Positions 19,216-60,153 of a stretch of 64,000 nt of DNA are shown here, one piece after another. A program made the position numbers and the translations under genes. Where the stretch lies: positions 62,001-126,000 of the forward strand of contig NZ_JAIPUT010000006.1 in assembly GCF_020055635.1 (NCBI RefSeq), in the 5' to 3' direction. This DNA is from Marivita sp. Its GTDB lineage: Bacteria; Pseudomonadota; Alphaproteobacteria; Rhodobacterales; Rhodobacteraceae. Within the stretch, counting starts at the first letter, position 1; each line of letters begins with the position of its first letter. The notes under the pieces are model-generated. The model worked only from the letters and a program-made list of their open reading frames with translations. It was not told where the DNA came from and ran no database searches.

Positions 19216-21402
19216 ATGACAGAAAGCCGTCCAGGAGACCTCTTCAAGCCTGGCGACCTGGTGAACAACACCTACCGCGTCGAAGCACTCCTGGGGCGCG
19301 GCGGCACATCAGACGTGTACCGGGCCCGCTCGGAAATCACCGGTCGTCTCGTCGCCCTGAAGGTTCTGAAATCGGAATTTTCGACGAACGAGGATTATCT
19401 TCTCCTGCTCACGCGGGAAGAAGCCATGCGCGAGATCCGGCATGATGCGATTGTCCGGTATTCGGAAAACCACCGCACCGCGGATGGGCATGTCTATCTC
19501 TTGATCGATTATGTCGATGGTCCGGGGATGGACAAGAAGCTCAAGGAAGGGCCGATGTCCGCTGATGATCTGCTGGTCATCTGCCGGCGGGTCGCCGAGG
19601 GGCTGCAAGCCGCGCATGAGCGCAAGATCTTCCACCGCGACCTGTCGCCCGACAACATCATCCTGCGCGACGGCGATCCTGCACAGGCGGTGATCATCGA
19701 TTTCGGCATCGCCAAGGACACCAATCCAGGCGCCGAGACCATCGTCGGCAACGAGTTTGCCGGGAAATACGCCTATGCCGCGCCAGAGCAGCTGTCGGGC
19801 ATGACCGATGCCCGAACGGACATCTATTCGCTCGGGGCGTCGCTGCTGGCGAATTTCCGGGGCAAGGCGCCGGATGTCGGTCGCAACCCGATGGAGGTCG
19901 TGCGCAAGAAGTCCGAAACACTCGATACCGAGGGCGTCCCAGAGCCTCTCAAGGCGCTTCTGGACAAGATGACGAACCCGAACCCGGACGAGCGTTTCGA
20001 AAGCGCCGCCGCGGTGCTTGCGGCGCTGGACGGTGAGAAATTCGATCCGCCCGAGACCGATACCCTTTCGGACGAGACCGTGATCGCACCGATCGCTGCG
20101 GCGGCCAAGGCCGCGTCCCAGCCGAAGGCCGAGATCATCGCAGGTGGCGCATCCGCCCCTCCCCCGAAAGCCAAGGCGACGAAAGATTCCGGGAAAAGCG
20201 GCATGTTGATCCCGCTCGTCCTTGGTGGCATGGTTGCCGCCGGGGTGGCGGGGGCCTTTGCGCTGGGGCTGTTTTCGTCGGCCCCTGCCCTGCCTGTTGC
20301 CGAGCCCTACCGATTGTCGGTCGCCAAGGCCAGGGACTCCGCTCCGCGCGCCGTGGGCTTCGTGCCAAGCGAAGAGATCGCCTCCGATCTTCGGGAACAG
20401 ATGCAGGCCCTGGACGGAAGTTTCGACCTGACGCTTGCCAGTGGCGCGATTTCGGAAAGCTGGGGGCTGGATGTACTGGCCGTGGTCGATGCGATCGACG
20501 ACATGGAAACCTGGCGCGTGTCGCTCTCGGGGAACATCGCCGAGGTCGAGGGATCGACCACAAGCAGACCGATCTACGACCAGGTTCAGGCGGCCTTCGA
20601 CGCCGGGATCATGGGCGCGCTGAGCGGCGAGCCGTCGCTGATCCTGGATGGCATCATCCTCGCGCCCGACCAGCTTGACCCGATCCTCAACACCTTCGCC
20701 GATTGCGGCCCGCTTGCCCTGGCCAACCGGCCGGTTGCGGGATACGGGCCCGAAAGCCCGATCACGATCCGCGGAGTGTTGTCCAGCGGGCAAAGTCGCG
20801 ATGCCCTGGCGAATGCCATGTCACCGGTGATCGGCGATCGACCACTCAACCTTGATGTCGACATCCTGAACACGACGCTGTGCCTGATCGAAAGCGTGAT
20901 GCCCAAGGCGCCGACAAGCGCCATCGACGTTGCCTTCTATCAAGGCGATCAGGCCAACAACCCGAACCCGACAGGAGCCTTCTTGGTCGGCGAAAACCCC
21001 GTCATCGACATTGAACTGCCCGCAGACATCACCGACGGGTACCTGTCCGTTTCCGTGCTGGACGTGTCAGGGAACGTGTTTCACCTTCTGCCCAACCTGA
21101 ACCGGGCCGATCATTCCGTCGCGGCGTTGCGGGACGGCACAGAGGGGTCGATGTCGGTCCGGGTCGCCTATTCGATCGAAGAGGCGCAGCAGACCGGCGG
21201 ATTGGCGTTCCGCGTTGACGACTCGACCTTGGGCAAATCCAAGATCCTCGTCATTCATTCGAGCGAACCGCTGTTCAACGAAATGCGCCCGACCAGTGAA
21301 TCCGCATCGAGCTATGCCGAGGCGATCCTCACGCAGGAGCGCAACGCCGCCTCGCGCATCTATTCCCTCGACAGTCGTATCCTGGAAACGCTGTCCCAGT
21401 GA
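19216..21402 (+). CDS. ppkA: T6SS-associated Ser/Thr protein kinase PpkA with periplasmic C-terminal module
   Basis: 728 residues. The cytoplasmic kinase domain has LGRGGTSDVYRA, lysine K49 in VALKVLK, HRDLSPDN (D142) and IDFGIAKD (162-164). An Ala/Pro linker leads to one membrane segment at about 330-352. The periplasmic part ends in a DUF4384-like segment (SVSVLDVSGNVFHLLPN). PpkA phosphorylates the Fha protein to switch the T6SS on in Pseudomonas and Agrobacterium. It converges on pppA, the opposing phosphatase. The C-terminal module resembles that of the protein at 48046-49769. Confidence 0.92.
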   Translation: MTESRPGDLFKPGDLVNNTYRVEALLGRGGTSDVYRARSEITGRLVALKVLKSEFSTNEDYLLLLTREEAMREIRHDAIVRYSENHRTADGHVYLLIDYVDGPGMDKKLKEGPMSADDLLVICRRVAEGLQAAHERKIFHRDLSPDNIILRDGDPAQAVIIDFGIAKDTNPGAETIVGNEFAGKYAYAAPEQLSGMTDARTDIYSLGASLLANFRGKAPDVGRNPMEVVRKKSETLDTEGVPEPLKALLDKMTNPNPDERFESAAAVLAALDGEKFDPPETDTLSDETVIAPIAAAAKAASQPKAEIIAGGASAPPPKAKATKDSGKSGMLIPLVLGGMVAAGVAGAFALGLFSSAPALPVAEPYRLSVAKARDSAPRAVGFVPSEEIASDLREQMQALDGSFDLTLASGAISESWGLDVLAVVDAIDDMETWRVSLSGNIAEVEGSTTSRPIYDQVQAAFDAGIMGALSGEPSLILDGIILAPDQLDPILNTFADCGPLALANRPVAGYGPESPITIRGVLSSGQSRDALANAMSPVIGDRPLNLDVDILNTTLCLIESVMPKAPTSAIDVAFYQGDQANNPNPTGAFLVGENPVIDIELPADITDGYLSVSVLDVSGNVFHLLPNLNRADHSVAALRDGTEGSMSVRVAYSIEEAQQTGGLAFRVDDSTLGKSKILVIHSSEPLFNEMRPTSESASSYAEAILTQERNAASRIYSLDSRILETLSQ

Positions 21403-21420: not shown

Positions 21421-22146
21421 TCAGGTCACGTCGACCACGATCACCGTGATGTTGTCCGCGCCGCCGCCGTTCAGGGCAATCTGGATCAGGCGGTCCACCA
21501 CGGTTTCAAGCGGTTCGTGATTCATCACGTCTTCAATCATCCGGAACGTCGCGTATTTGGTGAGCCCGTCCGAGCACAGAAGGAAACGGTCGCCCGGTTC
21601 GACCGCGCCCCGCACCTTGTCGAGTTCGAGCGTTTCACCCACGCCGACGGCCCGCGTGATCGCGTTCGACTGGGGATGATGCTCGGCTTCGTCCCATGTC
21701 ATCTGACCGGATTCGACAAGCGTTGCGACCAGTGAATGATCGGCCGTCAGCATCTGGATTTCACGGTCACGAAGGCGGTAGATGCGGCTGTCACCGGCCC
21801 AGATACCGACGAAATGCGAATTGGCCAGCATGAGGCTCGCCACGGTTGCGCCGATCGTTGTCACGCCACGGGCCGCCGCCTCATCCCGGATCAGGTCATG
21901 CGCCTTGTGGATGGCGTGACGCAGGGCATGCATCCGTTCGGTCGCGGGCAGGTTCGGTTCGATCGTGGCGATCATGTCGGTGATCAACCGACTGGCATAG
22001 TCGCCCGCCGCGTGCCCGCCCATGCCATCGGACACGACCCAGATATTCTGTTCGGGCAGAGCAAGAACCGAGTCCTCGTTCACCTTTCTCTTGAGACCGA
22101 CATGACTGCGGGCGCTGAAACGGATCTGTGGGGCAACGACATTCAT
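21421..22146 (-). CDS. pppA: PP2C-family protein phosphatase PppA
   Basis: A 241-residue metal-dependent Ser/Thr phosphatase with the full PP2C motif set: VNEDS, VSDGMGGHAAG, GDSRIYRLRD, CSDGLTKY and GGADNITVIVV. It would dephosphorylate targets of PpkA and switch the T6SS off. ATG 22146 overlaps the tagF stop as ATGA, which decides between several near starts. It is the last gene of the T6SS run. In Agrobacterium TagF and PppA are fused; here they are separate but coupled. Confidence 0.92.
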   Translation of the reverse strand: MNVVAPQIRFSARSHVGLKRKVNEDSVLALPEQNIWVVSDGMGGHAAGDYASRLITDMIATIEPNLPATERMHALRHAIHKAHDLIRDEAAARGVTTIGATVASLMLANSHFVGIWAGDSRIYRLRDREIQMLTADHSLVATLVESGQMTWDEAEHHPQSNAITRAVGVGETLELDKVRGAVEPGDRFLLCSDGLTKYATFRMIEDVMNHEPLETVVDRLIQIALNGGGADNITVIVVDVT

Positions 22147-22826
22147 GAAATGCATTCTCTCCAAAGATCGGCGTCCAGATCGAACAAACCTTGCATGTTC
22201 GATCCGTCCGGTAAACCGTTACAGACCATGAGGCGCGTGTCCTCTTCCATCGTCGTGCTCCAGATCGTCGGAGCGTCGAAGGATTTTCCCAGCATTTCCG
22301 CCGCCAGGATCGTCGTGACCTGCGCCATATCGCGACCCTTGCACGATATCGAGGCCCCCGGTGCGACCCGGCACTGCGCGGATTCTGGCGCGCCGGACAG
22401 GGCGAGCGTGGACAGCTTGTCTGCCAGCATGTCCTTGCTGATGTCCTCGTCGAGCACGGACAGCGACACGGTTTCCAGCTCCTGAAAAAGATCGGACTGA
22501 TGGAAATGCGTGCGCAGGGCCGACGCCATGTCCGGCAGAGGCGCCATCAGTGTCAGGGGAAAGCGCCGGCCCACGCGATCCACCGACGGCATCAGCACAC
22601 CCAGGATGGCCGCCGGGCCTGCGACGCCGGGTGACAGGCAGAACCGCCAGATCGGCACGGACATGTAAAGCCCGTCCCAGCGCGGCCCGTAGCCATGCGC
22701 CCCCGACACCAGGCAGCGCTGCAACCATTCATCCCAGACCGACGCGAAACCCGGCGGCGCGTTGATCCTGAAGAAATCCCCGACCGAGGGAATCTTGCCG
22801 AACGCTCCGAACGTCCCGGAGGGCAT
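22143..22826 (-). CDS. tagF: T6SS accessory protein TagF
   Basis: A 227-residue TagF/ImpM-family protein with the expected N-terminus TFGAFGKIPSVGDFFRI and a WDEWLQRCL segment. TagF is a post-translational repressor of T6SS activity in Pseudomonas and Agrobacterium, acting through Fha. ATG 22826 overlaps the tssM stop (ATGA); the longer frame upstream lies inside tssM and is discarded. Coupled to pppA at its other end. Confidence 0.9.
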   Translation of the reverse strand: MPSGTFGAFGKIPSVGDFFRINAPPGFASVWDEWLQRCLVSGAHGYGPRWDGLYMSVPIWRFCLSPGVAGPAAILGVLMPSVDRVGRRFPLTLMAPLPDMASALRTHFHQSDLFQELETVSLSVLDEDISKDMLADKLSTLALSGAPESAQCRVAPGASISCKGRDMAQVTTILAAEMLGKSFDAPTIWSTTMEEDTRLMVCNGLPDGSNMQGLFDLDADLWRECIS

Positions 22827-46137: not shown

Positions 46138-46560
46138 ATGAACAAAACCTCAACATGGCTGTCGGGTATCGCCTGTCTGTTTCTTGCAACGTCCGCCAGC
46201 GCCCAGTCGGGGCCGCTCTCGGTGGAACTCAACAAGTTCGAGCCCGGAGATCCAAGCGGGTGCCAGGCCTATTTCCTGTTCCGGAACGACACCGGCAAAA
46301 GCTTCGAGGGCTTCGAGATGAGCCTGGCCATCCTGGATGCCCAGGGTGTCATCGACCGGCTGCTGTCCATCGACGCGGCACCCTTGCCGGTGCAACGCAC
46401 GACGCTCAAGCTTTTTGCGATCCCGGATATCGACTGTTCCGACATCTCGGAAATCGTTCTGCATGACATGCCCGCCTGCAAGCCCCAGAACGAGGACGAG
46501 GTCGACTGTTTCGAATTTCTCGAGCTTGGCAGCAAGACTGACGCGCAGTTGGTGAAGTAG
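46138..46560 (+). CDS. Secreted protein of unknown function, first gene of the ExbBD operon
   Basis: 140 residues. A signal peptide ends near SASAQ (residue 23). The mature part has four or five cysteines (GCQAYF, DIDCSD, PACKP, DCFEF), which suggests disulfide bonds in the periplasm. I do not recognise the family. GGGAGG precedes the ATG. One base separates its stop from the exbB start, so the two are almost surely co-expressed. Confidence 0.72.
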   Translation: MNKTSTWLSGIACLFLATSASAQSGPLSVELNKFEPGDPSGCQAYFLFRNDTGKSFEGFEMSLAILDAQGVIDRLLSIDAAPLPVQRTTLKLFAIPDIDCSDISEIVLHDMPACKPQNEDEVDCFEFLELGSKTDAQLVK

Positions 46561-46561
46561 G

Positions 46562-47185
46562 ATGTTCGCCGCCTTCGACGATATCGGGACGGGCGCACCG
46601 ATCATCCTTCTGCTGCTTGTGCTGTCGGTTCTTTCGCTTGCCCTGATCGTCTACAAGATCGTGCAGCTCTGGTCGGTGACGTCGAAGGTCGAAACCCGGG
46701 ACGCAGCACTGAGCAGTTTCGAAACCGGGAACCTGACCGAAGCCAAAGCCAGGGCGGAAAGCGGGCAGACCCCTGCCAACCGGGTCCTGGCCTTTGCGAT
46801 AAAGGCGTTGGGCGACGGACGCTCCGGGGCCGCGTTGATGACCGAACTGACGCGCCGCGGAAACGAGGAATTCGCCCAGATGTCGCGTCACATCCGGCTG
46901 CTGGAGTTGATCGCGATGATCTCTCCGCTGCTTGGTCTGCTGGGAACGGTGCTGGGGATGATCCAGTCGTTCCAGGAACTCGAACTGGCCGAAGGTGCAG
47001 CCAATGCGTCGCTGTTGGCGGGCGGGATCTGGCAGGCCTTGCTGACGACTGCCGCGGGGCTGCTGGTGGCCATTCCGGCCGCGGTCGGGGCGACGCTGCT
47101 GGCGGCGCGGGCCGAACGCGGTGCGCAGCTGATCGAAGGCGCCATCGCGCAACTCATGCTGATTGCGGATCAGCCGTCAAGATAG
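46562..47185 (+). CDS. exbB: MotA/TolQ/ExbB-family proton channel protein
   Basis: 207 residues with three membrane segments: IILLLLVLSVLSLALIVYKIV (residues ~15-37), LLELIAMISPLLGLLGTVLGMIQSF (~115-140) and LLTTAAGLLVAIPAAVGATLLAA (~160-182). The GTVLGM and AAGLLVAIPA motifs are those of ExbB/TolQ. It should work with the ExbD proteins downstream to turn proton motive force into work on a periplasmic partner. TolQ of the Tol-Pal system is less likely without tolA/B/pal nearby. Confidence 0.88.
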   Translation: MFAAFDDIGTGAPIILLLLVLSVLSLALIVYKIVQLWSVTSKVETRDAALSSFETGNLTEAKARAESGQTPANRVLAFAIKALGDGRSGAALMTELTRRGNEEFAQMSRHIRLLELIAMISPLLGLLGTVLGMIQSFQELELAEGAANASLLAGGIWQALLTTAAGLLVAIPAAVGATLLAARAERGAQLIEGAIAQLMLIADQPSR

Positions 47186-47195
47186 GGGCGCCCCG

Positions 47196-47636
47196 ATGCA
47201 TGACCCCTCGATGACACTTCTCAAGCGGCCAGGCCCGCCGAAGGCGCTGATTTCCCTGGTGCCGATGATCGACGTGATGCTCATCCTGCTGGTGTTCTTC
47301 ATGGTCACCTCGACCTATCTGAACCTCGACATGATCCCGGCCGTCGCGCAGGCGGATGATCTGGCCGACCCGTCCGAAAGCGCCTCCGACACGCCCGGCG
47401 GCACGCTGCTGATCAGGATCGGGGCGGATGGCGTGCCGACGTCGCAAGGCCGGGGGCACGATCTCCAATCGCTCGAAACCCTGTTTTCCGACCGGCTGCG
47501 GACATCGCCGCAGCTTCGCGTTCTGGTGCTTCCATCGGGGGCTGCCGACATGCAGGCGCTGGTCTCGGTCATGGACACAGCCACGCGGTCCGGGGTCACG
47601 AACCTGCGCATCGTGCGCCTGGAGGCGGCGGAATGA
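47196..47636 (+). CDS. exbD: ExbD-family biopolymer transport protein, first copy
   Basis: 146 residues from ATG 47196. One membrane helix near the N-terminus contains the proton-carrying aspartate (SLVPMIDVMLILLVFFMVTS). The periplasmic domain follows (LRVLVLPSGAADMQALVSVMDTA). An open frame starting 33 bases earlier overlaps exbB and lacks support. The stop overlaps the second exbD (ATGA). Confidence 0.85.
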   Translation: MHDPSMTLLKRPGPPKALISLVPMIDVMLILLVFFMVTSTYLNLDMIPAVAQADDLADPSESASDTPGGTLLIRIGADGVPTSQGRGHDLQSLETLFSDRLRTSPQLRVLVLPSGAADMQALVSVMDTATRSGVTNLRIVRLEAAE

Positions 47637-48049
47637 AACTGTCCCGCCCACCCGCGCGACAACCGCCAGAGACGATCATCGCGCTGATCGACGTGGTGTT
47701 CTTCCTGCTGGTCTTCTTCATGCTGATCGGACGCATGGACGCCACCGCCCCCTTCGAGGTGAGCCCGCCGGTCGCGGCCACCGGCGCCGACATGCCCTCG
47801 GGCGGGATCACCCTGGCCGTCGCGCCGACGGGCGAGCTTGCGCTCGACGGGACGCCGATCGAGCGCGGTGCGCTGGACCAGGTGCTGGCAGACCGGCTGG
47901 ACCAGGCACCGGACACCCTCGTCCGGCTCAACGCGCATCGCGACACCGAATTGCGCCATGTCCTGCCCCTTGTCAGCCGTATCGAGGCGCTGGGTGCGCG
48001 CGACGTCGTGCTTGTCGTGACCCCCGAACCCGCGCCGCCCGGCCAATGA
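47633..48049 (+). CDS. exbD: ExbD-family biopolymer transport protein, second copy
   Basis: 138 residues with the same plan: IIALIDVVFFLLVFFMLIG carries the key aspartate. Two different ExbD proteins after one ExbB suggests a heteromeric stator. Its stop codon overlaps the ATG of the next gene (ATGATG at 48046), which implies that the next gene is the TonB-like partner. Confidence 0.85.
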   Translation: MKLSRPPARQPPETIIALIDVVFFLLVFFMLIGRMDATAPFEVSPPVAATGADMPSGGITLAVAPTGELALDGTPIERGALDQVLADRLDQAPDTLVRLNAHRDTELRHVLPLVSRIEALGARDVVLVVTPEPAPPGQ

Positions 48050-49769
48050 TGCGCTCTGCCCTGATATGGACCGGCGCGCTTGGCGTGTCCGCCGGAGTTC
48101 ATGTCGCCAGCGCTTTCGGGCTCTACCTGGCGACCCAGCCGGGGGATGTTCCCGAACAGCCGATGCCCGAAACGGAAATGCAGCTTGCCGCATACCAGGT
48201 GCAACGCAGCGAAGCGCGCGAAACCGCACCCGACTCGGACCAGGCGGCGTCGGGCGATACCGGCGGCGCGGCCCTCACCCAAGGCAGCATCGCAACCTCT
48301 CGGGCCTCGGCGCTGAGGCCGGGTGCAGAGGAAGGCGAAACGGTTTTGCCATCCGCCACCAGCGTCGCTGCGATGCCCCCGACAGGTACCGTCGCCCCGG
48401 CCCTGCCCGAAACCGCCGCGCCGCTGGCCCCGCAGGCCGTGTTGCAGGGCGCGCCCGTGACCGCGATACGGCCGGTCGATGTGGCCCTGCCGCCCGAAAG
48501 ACCGTTGCGAGCACCGGTTCCGGTCGCCACGATCGCACCCGAGCGCATGTCCGAAGCCGCCCCGAAGGCGGTGTCGCTTGCGTCGGAGACGATGGTCCAG
48601 ATCACGCTGTCGACGACGGATGCTGCCGCAGCGGCCATGCCCGCCCCCCCGGTCCAGCCACAGGCAACACGACCCGACGCCCCCGCCCTCGCAAGCCAAG
48701 CCGCCTTCCGGCAACCGGTCCCAAGCCTGACCGCGCCTGAACAGGCACCGCAGCCGCGTCCCGCAGCGCAGCAAGAACCGCAAGCCAGCCCCGCAGCCCG
48801 ACAGGAACCGCAGGCCGGGCTCGCAGCCGAGCAGGACCCGCAGACCAGTTCTGCATCGCGGCAGGACCCGCAATCCAGTCCTGCACCCCAGCAGGCCGTC
48901 CGAGCGGAAACTGCAGCATCAGTCGCACCGCCTGCCGATCGGGCCAAGGCGGCGCTGACCTTCCAGAATTCAGCCGGTGGCGCGATCGACCCGGTCTCCC
49001 TGACGGCGTTCCAAAGCTTCATGGAACCCGGCGACCTGAGCGGGGCCGCGGCCGAGATCCGCGACGGGATCAAGGGCGCCCTGAGCGCCATCCCCTGCTC
49101 GCGTCTGCAGGTCCAGTTCGTTCCGGATGAAAACAGCCTGCTCGTCTCGGGCCATGTGCCCGACCCGGACCTGCGGGATACGGTCGTATCGGCGATGCAG
49201 GCACAGATGGGGCGCGACATCCCGGTGCGCAGCGACCTGCTGATCCTTCCAAGCCCGCAATGCGCGGCCCTTTCGGGCATCGCCAATGTCGGCTTGCCGC
49301 AATCCACCGACCAGATCACCAACCCGCTGCTCGTGGGCGAGGACACCCACGCGCGCGAATTCCGCTACACCGCGGGCAAACCGCTGGTGATGACCCTGCA
49401 AGGTGCGGATTACGATGCCTATGTCTATGTCGATTACTTCGATGCCGACGGCAACGTGCTTCACCTTGCCCCGAACGAACATACGCCGCTTGAACGGACC
49501 GAGGCCAAGTCGGAATTGCAGATCGGGTCGGATCACGTTCTCGAGCCGGGCGAACCCGGCCTTTACATCGAGATCGGTCCCCCCTTCGGCCAGGAAATTG
49601 CGGTCGCCTTCGCGGCATCCCGGCCGCTTTACGATGGGGTGCGCCCATTGGTGAACCCGCCGAACCCTACCTGGACTGGCTCCGGGACCGGGTCGCCGAA
49701 GCACGCGCCGCCGATCCCGATTTCAAAGGCGAATGGGTCTACTTCTTCATCTCGACCTCGGAAGACTGA
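48046..49769 (+). CDS. TonB-like partner of ExbBD with a DUF4384-type C-terminal domain (apparent frameshift)
   Basis: About 574 residues if one base is restored near 49645. One N-terminal membrane helix (residues ~3-28) is followed by a long Ala/Pro/Gln-rich periplasmic spacer, with ten-residue repeats, then a domain with a single cysteine pair (AIPCSRLQVQF; SPQCAALSG) and a DUF4384-like end (DYFDADGNVLHLAPNEH). As read, the frame runs to 49965, but the other frame gives GEPAEPYLDWLRDRVAEAR and a stop at 49769. That tail aligns with the end of PpkA, so the shift looks real. The TonB role is inferred from context. Confidence 0.72.
48761..48900 (+). repeat. 30-base tandem repeats coding Q-E/D-P-Q spacer units
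   Basis: Units start at 48761, 48791, 48821 and 48851, with a partial one at 48881. Each codes a ten-residue block of the form AAxQ(E/D)PQxSP. They lengthen the periplasmic spacer of the TonB-like protein. Copy number may vary between strains. Confidence 0.85.
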
Positions 49770-50672: not shown

Positions 50673-52178
50673 CTATTCCAGGCCGTATGCAGCCCGGATG
50701 CCACGCTTGGTGCCCGGGCCGATATCACCGTCCAGAGCGCCGTTATAGAATTCGTAGGCCTGCAATTGCGCCTGCAACTCGCGCCGGGTTTCCTCGGCAA
50801 ACATCGTCGGACGTTCAAGCAGAAGGTTCAGCACGTCCTGGCTGCCGCTGCGCAAGGCGGCATAGAGATAGGTCGCGGCATCCTTCGGCCCCTTGTTCGG
50901 GATCAGCCCGTCATCGATCAGGGCGGCAAAGTTGAACTGCGCCTCGGGATGGCGCAGGTCAGCCGCCCGCTCGAACAGCTCCAGCGCCTTGTCCGGGTTC
51001 GGACGCAGCCCCAATCCCCCCTGGTAGTGCAAAAACCCCAGATCGTTGATCGCATCGGCGAAATCCTGGTCGGCGGCCGCCTGGTAAAGCTCCAGCGCGC
51101 GGGCTTCATCGACATCCACGCCGATCCCCTGCTCGTAAAGCTTTGCCAGTTCCATCTGGGCCTCCGGCGACCCACGCTCGACCGCGCGCTCCAGAAAGCT
51201 GACCGCCTGCGACGGATCAAAGCGCGAATCCTCGGGGTTTAGCCGGATATAGGCCAGCCCCAGCATCGAGCGCGTATCGCCAAGATTGGCCAGCGCCAGC
51301 AGTTGGGATTCCTGGTCGGGCCGAAGCTGCGACCAGGTCTTCGAAGGTTCGGCGGTGGCAAGGTCCGTTCCGGCATCCGGCGCGCCGGACAGGTAGAAGG
51401 GTTTCCCGGTCAGCGAGCCATAGGTGTAAGGCTCCTGGAGGTTCTGGGTCTCCTGCAACACGGCATCCCGCACCTGGCGGAACATCAGGCTGATCTCCAG
51501 CCCCGGCTTCGCCATTTTCTCCATCAGGGCCCGGGCATAAGGGCTGTTTCCGCGGGTGCCGTCCAGCGCCACCTGACCATCCTTGGCCGCGAAGGCCACA
51601 AGCGTGCCGCGATCCGGGTTGGCCGGCGCCAGACCGCCTGCGCCCCGCGTCGCCTGATCGGTGGCTTCCAGTGCGGATTGCACAACCGCGTTGGTGTCGA
51701 TGGCCCCGCCCAGCGGATTGTCGCGGCAGCTGTCAAGGATGACGATCCGCATCACCCGCGCCTTCTCGACCACCTCGAGCATGTCCTTGAGAGACACGGA
51801 TTGCCGTTGCACGTCGATATTCGAGGTCGGACGTGCATCGACGGGGATCAGGAAGTTCTCGCCCTGCACCTCGATCCCGTGTCCGGCGAAATAGATCAGC
51901 GCCAGGTCGGCCGTTTCCGAACGGAACGAAAATTCCTTCATGACCGCGCGGAGTTCCGCAAGGCTGAGGTCGATGCCCCGGGTCACATCGAACCCGATTT
52001 CCGTCAATGTGTCGGCAAGGTCTTCGGCATCGTTGCGGGTGTTCGTCAGCGGCGTGATCGTATCGTACTCCGCCATCCCGATCACCAGCGCCACGCGGTC
52101 AGGACTGGCCGAGGCCATCCCCAACTGGGCGCAGATCACGAAGACGGGAAGAATGAACAGGCGGACGACGCAGCGCAT
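50673..52178 (-). CDS. Exported caspase-like (C14) protein with Sel1 repeats
   Basis: 501 residues from ATG 52178 (AGGA eight bases ahead). A signal peptide ends near residue 25. The caspase-like domain has the catalytic pair H100 (YFAGHG) and C151 (ILDSCRDNP), both intact. Sel1-like repeats follow (LGDTRSMLGLAYIRL; GSPEAQMELAKLYEQGIGV; DFADAINDLGFLHYQGG; HPEAQFNFAALIDDG). The end (YNGALDGDIGPGTKRGIRAAYGL) looks like a peptidoglycan-binding motif. The substrate is unknown; export makes an intracellular death role unlikely. Confidence 0.83.
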   Translation of the reverse strand: MRCVVRLFILPVFVICAQLGMASASPDRVALVIGMAEYDTITPLTNTRNDAEDLADTLTEIGFDVTRGIDLSLAELRAVMKEFSFRSETADLALIYFAGHGIEVQGENFLIPVDARPTSNIDVQRQSVSLKDMLEVVEKARVMRIVILDSCRDNPLGGAIDTNAVVQSALEATDQATRGAGGLAPANPDRGTLVAFAAKDGQVALDGTRGNSPYARALMEKMAKPGLEISLMFRQVRDAVLQETQNLQEPYTYGSLTGKPFYLSGAPDAGTDLATAEPSKTWSQLRPDQESQLLALANLGDTRSMLGLAYIRLNPEDSRFDPSQAVSFLERAVERGSPEAQMELAKLYEQGIGVDVDEARALELYQAAADQDFADAINDLGFLHYQGGLGLRPNPDKALELFERAADLRHPEAQFNFAALIDDGLIPNKGPKDAATYLYAALRSGSQDVLNLLLERPTMFAEETRRELQAQLQAYEFYNGALDGDIGPGTKRGIRAAYGLE

Positions 52179-52552
52179 GGTTCGAATCCTTTCGCTGATT
52201 TCGCGAGGCTTGACCCAGCATAGTACCAGCACGCCCGGATTTCACTCAATTCTTTGCGAACTCCCCGGATATCACCCTGAGTACCTGCCGCCGCGGCACC
52301 GCTCGGAAACGCCGCGCCTTCCGTCGCGCCGTTGGCTCCGTTCGTTTCGCACAGGCCATGCTTGACTTGAGGTAAGGTTGCGCCTCACACTGGGGCCAAT
52401 AGGTCGGGATCAAGAAACGGTCGTCACACGCCGTGGGCCGTGCACGAAGGCAGCCTGATATATCGTCATGCTGCCGGATTTTTTCGCGTTTCGCCCTTCG
52501 TTTTCAATCGGCTTTCCAAGAGCCTGAATTTTAGCAGACGGACGTATCGATT
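52179..52552. promoter_or_regulatory. Divergent intergenic region before the large repeat protein
   Basis: A 374-base gap with no gene recognised. A TTGACT hexamer at 52362-52367 is followed by TGAGG (52368-52372) and CCTCA (52383-52387), a possible operator overlapping a promoter. The -10 hexamer is poor. Base composition drops in GC toward the plus-strand gene. Confidence 0.35.
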
Positions 52553-58635: not shown

Positions 58636-60153
58636 TTGACTGACTGCATACGACGTCTGGGCACCCGCATCAGAACCAACGCCGTTGCGACATGCCTTGC
58701 TGTGCTGACATTGACCGGGGCCGCATCGGCGCAGGAGCGGATCGCGCTCGTCATCGGCAATTCCAACTACAGCAGCGTTTCAACGCTGGACAATCCGACC
58801 CGTGACGCGGAACTGATCGCATCGACTTTGGAAGAGATCGACTTTCAGGTCACCCTGCTGATCGACGCGACCCAGAATGACATGAAGCAGGCGCTGTCCG
58901 ATTTCGGGCGCAGCCTGCGCAACGGCGGAGCGGACACGACCGGCCTGTTCTATTATGCGGGCCACGGCGTTCAGAGCTTTGGAAACAACTACCTGCTGCC
59001 CGTCGACGTGGCGCTGAACGATGCCGCCGACCTTGACCTCGAGGGGGTCGAGGCACAATCGGTCCTCCGTCAGATGGCCTCGGCCCGCAACCGAACCAAT
59101 TTCGTCATTCTCGATGCCTGCCGCAACAATCCGTTCGCCGACATGGCCGAATTCGATTCCCCCGGTCTCGCCGAGATGAAGGCGCCGACCGGCACGTTCC
59201 TGTCCTACGCGACCTCTCCAGGTGCCGTGGCGCTTGACGGCACCGGACAGAATAGCCCGTTCACGCTGGCACTGGCCAAGGAAATGACCAAGCCGGGCAT
59301 ACCCGTCGAACAGATGTTCAAGCAGGTACGCATTTCGGTCCTGGACCAGACCAACGGCTTGCAGACCCCGTGGGATACATCGTCCCTGACGAACAATTTC
59401 GCCTTCGTCGACGCCCCGCTGGAAACGCCGGAAGACCTCGCTGCGCGACAGCTCTGGAACTCGGTCCAGGCGACGCGGGATCCGGTGCAGATCATGCTCT
59501 TCCTGCGCGGCTACCCCGACAGCAGCTATGCCGAAGAGGCGCGCGCGCTTCTGGCCGAAGCCATCGAAAGCGAACTGACCGACGATACCGTGACCGCTGC
59601 CCGGCCCGAACCCGCAGGACCCTCGGAAGACGAACAGGCCATGTTCGAAGCGGTTCAGGCGAACCCGACCATCGCCGGATATCAAGACTTCCTCGACATG
59701 TATCCGGAAGGAACATTCTCGGAATTCGCCAAGGGCGAGATCGAGGCGCTTACCGCGCAGACCAACCTTGATCCCGTCGGCGAAGGTGTCAGCGAACCGG
59801 ACCCCGAACAGGACATCGAACTTGCACTGGCGCTGGAACAGGAACGCTCGTCTGTCCCGAACGTCGTGACATTCGACACCGCGCTCGTGGCGCCGGGAAC
59901 GGCCATCGACGGAATCCTGTTGTCGGAAATCACCCAGCTGTCACCGATGTTCCCACCTGTCGAAGGGCTGCCGGAAGAATATTGGAAAGACGTGACCTGC
60001 TCCAATTGCCACGAGTGGAACAAGGATCGGCTGTGTGAACAGTCGAATGTCTATCTCAATCTGAGCGGTCAGAAATCGCTGGAAAAGCCGCATCCCTTCA
60101 ATGGGGTGCTCAAGCGGAACCTCCGGCAATGGGCCGCCGGAGGCTGCCAATAG
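58636..60153 (+). CDS. Exported caspase-like (C14) protein with a C-terminal CXXCH motif
   Basis: 505 residues from TTG 58636, supported by AGGAGG; no ATG lies in the signal peptide, which ends near ASAQ (residue 33). The caspase-like domain has H110 (YYAGHG) and C162 (ILDACRNNP), both intact. The middle is Glu/Pro-rich with tetratricopeptide-like segments. Near the end VTCSNCHEW (C455, C458, H459) matches the c-type haem-binding pattern, followed by a further cysteine pair (LCEQ, GGCQ). It is a paralogue of the 50673-52178 protein, on the opposite strand. Confidence 0.83.
   Translation: MTDCIRRLGTRIRTNAVATCLAVLTLTGAASAQERIALVIGNSNYSSVSTLDNPTRDAELIASTLEEIDFQVTLLIDATQNDMKQALSDFGRSLRNGGADTTGLFYYAGHGVQSFGNNYLLPVDVALNDAADLDLEGVEAQSVLRQMASARNRTNFVILDACRNNPFADMAEFDSPGLAEMKAPTGTFLSYATSPGAVALDGTGQNSPFTLALAKEMTKPGIPVEQMFKQVRISVLDQTNGLQTPWDTSSLTNNFAFVDAPLETPEDLAARQLWNSVQATRDPVQIMLFLRGYPDSSYAEEARALLAEAIESELTDDTVTAARPEPAGPSEDEQAMFEAVQANPTIAGYQDFLDMYPEGTFSEFAKGEIEALTAQTNLDPVGEGVSEPDPEQDIELALALEQERSSVPNVVTFDTALVAPGTAIDGILLSEITQLSPMFPPVEGLPEEYWKDVTCSNCHEWNKDRLCEQSNVYLNLSGQKSLEKPHPFNGVLKRNLRQWAAGGCQ

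Follow-up and report, generated by a model that had tools for sequence, protein, structure and literature searches.

The ectodomain of PpkA, a T6SS-linked Ser/Thr kinase, was reported to be contacted by lineage-specific partners, namely TagR in Pseudomonas and RtkS in Serratia (PMC6082577, PMC12607579) and TssW in Acidovorax (PMC12607579); in addition, PpkA was described to phosphorylate TssL in Agrobacterium (PMC3953482) and to carry a vWA sensor domain in P. aeruginosa (PMC3224232). In E. coli, the motor is contacted by Ser16/His20 of TonB and Ser18/His22 of TolA (PMC12215075), and force transducers with vWA heads were proposed to be driven by proton-motive force, their function being given as unknown (PMC12204202). 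The locus described here combined a PpkA-type kinase (K) with a Ton/Tol-like transducer (T). T resembled the transducers of TonB–ExbB–ExbD and TolA–TolQ–TolR in its ExbB/TolQ and ExbD/TolR partner genes, Ser-3X-His helix, low-complexity linker, and globular C-terminal head, with the pore Thr and ExbD Asp (residues as in PMC12215075) invariant in its motor, but it differed from them in its BON-like plus DUF4384 head, its two ExbD copies, an ExbB without the Trp pairing with Ser, and the location of its genes inside a T6SS cluster. T and the vWA-headed transducers had in common a motor-binding helix, a linker, and a head unrelated to that of TonB/TolA, but the latter transducers carry a vWA head, and T6SS and kinases go unmentioned in the available part of their description (PMC12204202). 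As proposed below, T would be similar to TagQRST, RtkS, and TssW as a periplasmic or trans-envelope protein acting on the PpkA ectodomain, but ExbB goes unmentioned for these systems in the available parts of PMC12607579 and PMC6082577, and T, unlike them, harbored a head sharing homology with the kinase's own.

The window (the whole stretch of 64,000 nucleotides from Marivita sp. that was analyzed) contained the following features:

19216 to 21402, forward strand: K, a PpkA-type Ser/Thr kinase of 728 aa with a transmembrane helix and a C-terminal ectodomain

20305 to 20880, forward strand: two BON-like units of the K ectodomain (model residues about 36–227)

20701 to 21399, forward strand: head of K in common with T, starting at the first invariant Cys (model residue 169) and extending to the C-terminal end

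21421 to 22164, reverse strand: PppA-like phosphatase

22143 to about 23006, reverse strand: TagF-like protein

22826 to 44429, reverse strand: T6SS core, with TssM, TssL, TssK, Fha, VgrG, ClpV, TssG, TssF, TssE, TagJ, Hcp, TssC, TssB, and TssA

46138 to 46560, forward strand: SP140, a small protein whose N terminus is signal-like and whose gene opens the motor operon

46562 to 47185, forward strand: ExbB/TolQ-like proton channel subunit (Pfam MotA_ExbB, 3.3e-27)

47163 to 47636, forward strand: ExbD/TolR-like protein, copy 1, start codon uncertain (Pfam ExbD, 3.1e-19)

47633 to 48049, forward strand: ExbD/TolR-like protein, copy 2 (Pfam ExbD, 1.4e-18)

48046 to 49769, forward strand: T, a Ton/Tol-like transducer with a transmembrane helix, a Pro/Ala/Gln-rich linker, and a BON-like plus DUF4384 head

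49093 to 49647, forward strand: head of T in common with K, starting at about the first invariant Cys and ending where the frame shifts

The gene order of the window placed K in the company of pppA, fha, and tss genes. Five components of the T6SS core (TssM, TssK, Fha, Hcp, and TssC) had Pfam support, and the remaining ones were presumed from their sequences to be TssL, VgrG, ClpV, TssG, TssF, TssE, TagJ, TssB, and TssA; the names thus given matched the annotated order in Ruegeria conchae. The identities of the PppA-like and TagF-like proteins were likewise presumed from their sequences, and related clusters annotated a PP2C phosphatase and tagF at the corresponding place.

T was the last gene of a five-gene operon SP140–exbB–exbD–exbD–T, usually located beside tssA, and the operon genes in the window overlapped or nearly touched at their ends. 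SP140 matched no Pfam family, and it was present in 13/13 T-positive regions. ExbB displayed the invariant residues T129, T162, and T163 (pore Thr), P122, and P172 (14/14 each) together with invariant Ser22 and Ser25 (14/14), either of which may match the Ton/Tol Ser; the residue four positions past Ser22/Ser25 was I/L/V or F/I/L, not the Trp of the Ton/Tol network. Asp37 of the first ExbD and Asp20 of the second were both invariant (14/14). The source genome harbored seven ExbB-family genes, the T motor being one of several. Distant SP140 copies were observed at the head of other ExbBD operons of the same genome (L220).

The five-gene operon was found in all 13 T-positive regions read, across two T6SS layouts (tssA in view in 12/13; operon co-directional with tssA in the type B layout), and in none of seven stretches from five K-positive T-negative genomes. 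Among 80 named loci (Rhodobacteraceae or MAGs), SP140, ExbB, and both ExbD genes accompanied T in 73, and tss genes lay within 10 kb in 70; as for the remaining seven loci, six ended 93–651 bases from the match, and L179 had three of the four partners on a 6.8-kb contig. Taken together, the T operon is very probably dedicated to T6SS.

The N-terminal hydrophobic helix of T held S15–H19, corresponding to the SxxxH motor-binding motif of TonB/TolA, a pattern that was looked for first and then picked by hydrophobicity. This helix was visible in 73 of the 80 named loci (SxxxH in 71 and SxxxN in two), and S...H was present in 49/53 order entries of T, the remainder having SxxxN (two genes) or being cut off. 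Replacement of TonB His20 by Asn is tolerated. DUF4384 was the only Pfam domain found in T (34.1 bits, above the cut-off of 27), with neither TonB_C nor TolA being matched at E up to 1.

The T copy of the window had a frameshift at roughly 49644–49668: it was matched by the T profile in two pieces, contig 110946–111668 and then 111644–111763 (window 48946–49668 and 49644–49763), a three-frame view likewise changed frame near 49644–49668, and 49769 was a stop codon in the second frame. The 11 same-genus relatives in the alignment ran in a single frame through to the end, and thus the piece with GEPAEP was part of the same protein; the frameshift was either an error of sequencing or assembly or a mutation of recent origin. 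All motifs quoted in the original prediction were located, those of PpkA within 19216–21402 and those of the TonB-like protein from 48046 on, both on the forward strand; GEPAEP did belong to the same protein as the other TonB-like motifs, but it lay in another frame in the window copy.

K had a clear kinase domain (Pfam Pkinase, 3e-36), and its structure model (pLDDT 88.4) displayed a helix at residues 3–21 followed by a folded predicted ectodomain, in which Cys169 and Cys228 were invariant (36/36 alignment rows). The ectodomain model resembled (VIA-align) the BON pair of Rv0899/OmpATb plus an Ig-like sandwich. It differed from the BON domains of ArfA/OmpATb (Rv0899) in sequence and geometry (identity 12–13%, rmsd 5.2–6.1), and T and K showed no porin or OmpA context. 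Sequence searches of PDB gave no convincing match (best E 0.82 and 0.17). The comparison of folds suggested earlier for the two proteins was feasible for the K side only, since the T model (12-sequence alignment) had a pLDDT of 44.7, too poor for comparison with K.

Judged from sequence, T and K have homologous C-terminal heads, each composed of a BON-like domain with a Cys pair followed by a DUF4384-type domain. Full-length BLASTP aligned residues 528–692 of K with residues 377–534 of T at E 3e-6, and the C-terminal parts alone scored 35.8 bits, a value reached by 0/1000 shuffles (best shuffle 24.6). In hhalign, T and K matched at E 7.7e-8 with 12 + 12 genus sequences and, with 34 + 36 sequences, at E 6.7e-11 across 190 columns, compared to E 0.29 and 0.58 in controls with one side reversed. 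The identity was low (about 21–26%), and the two cysteines invariant in each family aligned with each other; in a wider alignment including outside rows, the second Cys column was conserved in 75/75, and the first Cys column was also 75/75, partly by construction as outside, T, and K rows were cut there before aligning. The segments preceding the motifs aligned between PpkA and the TonB-like protein in the order originally given, and the alignment of the two C-terminal parts proposed at that time came out well above its reversed controls. The claim of a common extracytoplasmic module on a T6SS kinase and an ExbBD-energized protein is accordingly upheld at the level of sequence homology. K scored 12.3 bits against DUF4384, under the curated cut-off of 27 bits, and it is counted in this family solely through its homology to T.

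In a genus sample of 17 genomes, T was present in 12 and K in 14, with T always occurring within the K genomes; T and K lay 27.7–28.7 kb apart on one contig in 9/12. The two genomes with K alone had K at the end of a contig, and T could therefore be missing merely from the assembly. A survey of 390 order genomes, with strong T defined as E below 1e-60 and strong K as E below 1e-30, gave T in 41, K in 63, and TssC in 112: all 41 T genomes had K and TssC, all 63 K genomes had TssC, and the hypergeometric value for this nesting was 7.6e-15, a statistic that ignores shared ancestry. T was missing from 22/63 K genomes and 71/112 TssC genomes. The search of other genomes for the pair, as first suggested, found T and K on the same contig in 36/41 (spacing 12–262 kb), and T lay within 10 kb of tssC in 37/41. 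On Rhizobium and Sinorhizobium plasmids, K-type PpkA was present, and a T search gave no match.

A generic DUF4384 similarity, named in the original prediction as the opposing explanation, was rejected as the whole explanation of the K–T pairing: K accounted for 32/34 secondary matches of the T profile in the 390 order genomes, and K was therefore the nearest relative of T in those genomes. DUF4384-positive order genomes numbered 69, of which 41 were the T genomes and 28 were without T.

When 382 class genomes were searched with the T profile, nine gave matches besides its own genome. Four of these nine matches were heads on kinases: the kinase of G530 was in a T6SS cluster, that of G731 was beside pppA, tssM, tssL, and tssK, that of G450 was beside pppA, and that of G751 was near vgrG. 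These four kinases gave stronger matches with the T profile (4e-30 to 1e-21) than with the K profile (3e-8 to 2e-11), and the other five matches were non-kinases. A quick tree showed T and K as separate groups, each split off by a branch (99), and placed the outside kinases between them, nearer T; its long branches were flagged, leaving the placement and the root unsure. Since the outside kinase heads fit the T profile and place nearer T, the T head is, as far as profiles indicate, a PpkA-type head, with its placement in the tree unsure. The relationship put forward in the original prediction thus exists but proved wider than claimed, with T-like heads also occurring on kinases linked to T6SS in further orders of Alphaproteobacteria. 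In G676, a T-type head was observed on a protein resembling, by eye, a papain-type peptidase (L214 9272–11839), which adjoined caspase and OmpA genes.

A second pair, composed of transducer X and kinase K2, was found in five of nine K-positive T-negative genomes searched, and the other four showed no such locus. The X/K2 locus had the organization SP140-like gene–exbB–exbD–X beside a PP2C phosphatase gene and K2, with exbD in two copies in 4/5; two of the five loci adjoined T6SS genes, and no tss genes were seen within the stretches examined of three (L223, L225, and L231). Caspase-like and OmpA genes were observed alongside the loci of this organization in L223, L225, L226, L228, and L231. 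On plasmids, seven of 16 X-match records were viewed (Sagittula stellata, Paracoccus aminophilus, P. alcaliphilus, P. aminovorans, Leisingera S132, Thioclava, and Rhodovulum); in 7/7, X lay within a T6SS cluster and was preceded by ExbB and one or more ExbD, and a kinase was in view in 5/7. X of Leisingera S132 (L248 19380–20603), which had a Ton-like helix and lay behind two ExbD genes, was annotated as a serine/threonine protein kinase, a label that probably stems from the common head.

The heads of X (n = 12) and K2 (n = 11) matched in hhalign with a probability of 99.6 and E 5.3e-25 (reversed controls: 0.17–0.62), and the Cys pair was present in 12/12 X and 11/11 K2. BLASTP within own X–K2 pairs gave matches in 9/10 (1e-3 to 1e-11, two of them weak at 0.002 and 0.001) and no match at E up to 1 in G374. 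The cross pairs, T or K versus X or K2, matched weakly (E 0.0012–0.048). Strong X–K2 and weak cross-pair matching thus indicates that the head of each transducer is of the type found on its partner kinase. A descent of both pairs from one duplicated unit was unsupported by sequence, the cross-pair matches being weak. K2 reached the kinase heads of other orders at 1.3e-5, and all these heads may therefore be one old superfamily. A K2-headed T6SS kinase of Mesorhizobium ciceri was not accompanied by ExbBD within the 30 kb inspected; together with the Rhizobium and Sinorhizobium cases, this indicates that kinase heads also occur without a transducer.

The reading preferred here is that T belongs to the Ton/Tol class of transducers driven by proton-motive force, serves this T6SS exclusively, and works with PpkA, to which we assign about even chances; that T acts through PpkA is, taken by itself, a similarly balanced proposition. 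ExbBD would turn or pull T, and the T head would reach the PpkA head by direct like-with-like BON or Ig-type contact or through one common envelope partner; the binding or force would then alter PpkA dimerization, with consequences for the phosphorylation of Fha or TssL and for the assembly of T6SS. In this role, T would take the place occupied by TagQRST in Pseudomonas, RtkS in Serratia, and TssW in Acidovorax. A kinase/transducer pair that functions together predicts within-pair matching in two head families, and the matched heads point to a membrane-energy input into the T6SS control circuit. The control link that the original prediction had drawn between the kinase and the proton-driven machine is borne out to the extent that gene linkage and a second pair with its own matched heads make a functional T–K link likely. 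Also in favor of the preferred reading are the strict nesting of T in K and of K in TssC, the conserved five-gene operon and motor-binding motif, the T-like heads on kinases beside pppA or tss genes in other orders, and the lineage-specific activators RtkS and TssW that contact PpkA ectodomains. The 22 K genomes without T count against it, T being dispensable to K there, although five of the nine searched hold an X/K2 locus. Further points against it are the three X/K2 loci with no tss gene in the stretches examined, the G374 pair without a BLASTP match and the two weak pairs, the ExbB lacking the Ton/Tol Trp, the T model too poor for a fold comparison, and the Rhizobium and Sinorhizobium plasmids with K-type PpkA and no T match.

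The chief competing reading, rather unlikely in our estimate, holds that T serves the envelope complex of T6SS mechanically or as an anchor and is not a kinase input: both heads would dock on one T6SS part, and the motor would help the complex to get through peptidoglycan or to the outer membrane, perhaps replacing TssJ. It is consistent with Roseobacter T6SS1 clusters having every core gene but tssJ (PMC9515649), with the outer-membrane anchor TssW binding the periplasmic parts of TssM and PpkA (PMC12607579), with the extension of TolA/TonB-type proteins to the outer membrane (PMC12215075), and with the position of the T operon next to tssA, co-directional in the type B layout. However, the same T6SS core exists without T in the 22 K-positive and 71 TssC-positive genomes, which argues that T is not required for the machine as such, and the within-pair head matching would need the common partner to differ between two T6SS types. 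The heads might instead, in line with the original prediction, sense one ligand, such as cell-wall or outer-membrane damage, without T–PpkA contact, PpkA signaling by phosphorylation and T applying proton force on that ligand; one head type on both proteins and the likeness of the modeled K ectodomain to a BON pair and an Ig-like sandwich, plausible binding folds, agree with this, but no ligand is known, and we regard it as improbable.

Generic module shuffling, in which BON + DUF4384 would be a widespread adhesion domain of the periplasm, carried by T and K for unrelated reasons while they hitch-hike in one island, would account for the non-kinases among the other-order matches, for the 28 DUF4384-positive order genomes without T, and for T and K forming single clades with long separating branches in the quick tree. 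It is already disfavored and has very little probability left, given that the secondary T matches were nearly all K, that T was strictly nested in K and K in TssC, that head matching occurred within two independent pairs, and that the operon was retained beside tssA in two T6SS layouts.

Returning to T as an energized input to PpkA, the two pairs would conform to a pairing rule for alphaproteobacterial T6SS, in which transducer and kinase bear matched heads and the transducer mechanically reads proton-motive force or its loss (e.g., on envelope damage) and hands it to the kinase; this generalization is tentative and falls somewhat short of an even chance. The vWA domain is likewise reported both for a kinase (P. 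aeruginosa PpkA) and for motor-driven force transducers, and this may be a further case of pairing. The pairing rule, if true, would define a third class of energized Ton/Tol transducer, and to our knowledge it would provide the first proton-motive-force input to a Ser/Thr kinase. T itself would add a new head class to Ton/Tol transducers, would link cell-envelope energization with the control of an interbacterial weapon, and is a genetically testable candidate for sensing the PpkA trigger outside the well-studied species, in many marine Rhodobacteraceae. The titles among the literature matches listed included no T6SS-linked ExbBD transducer and no matched kinase heads.

Two caspase-domain genes were additionally observed near T6SS and T in the window, at 50673–52232 (Peptidase_C14, 1.1e-37) and 58636–60153 (7.9e-40), and caspase-like genes recurred next to T and X loci. 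Long ORFs with TssB- plus TssC-like parts were seen in three places in related clusters: (i) L104 17409 to L105 2022, (ii) L107 3–3620, and (iii) L235 9642–13781; a TssB/TssC fusion (TssCL) has been reported from roseobacters (PMC9515649).
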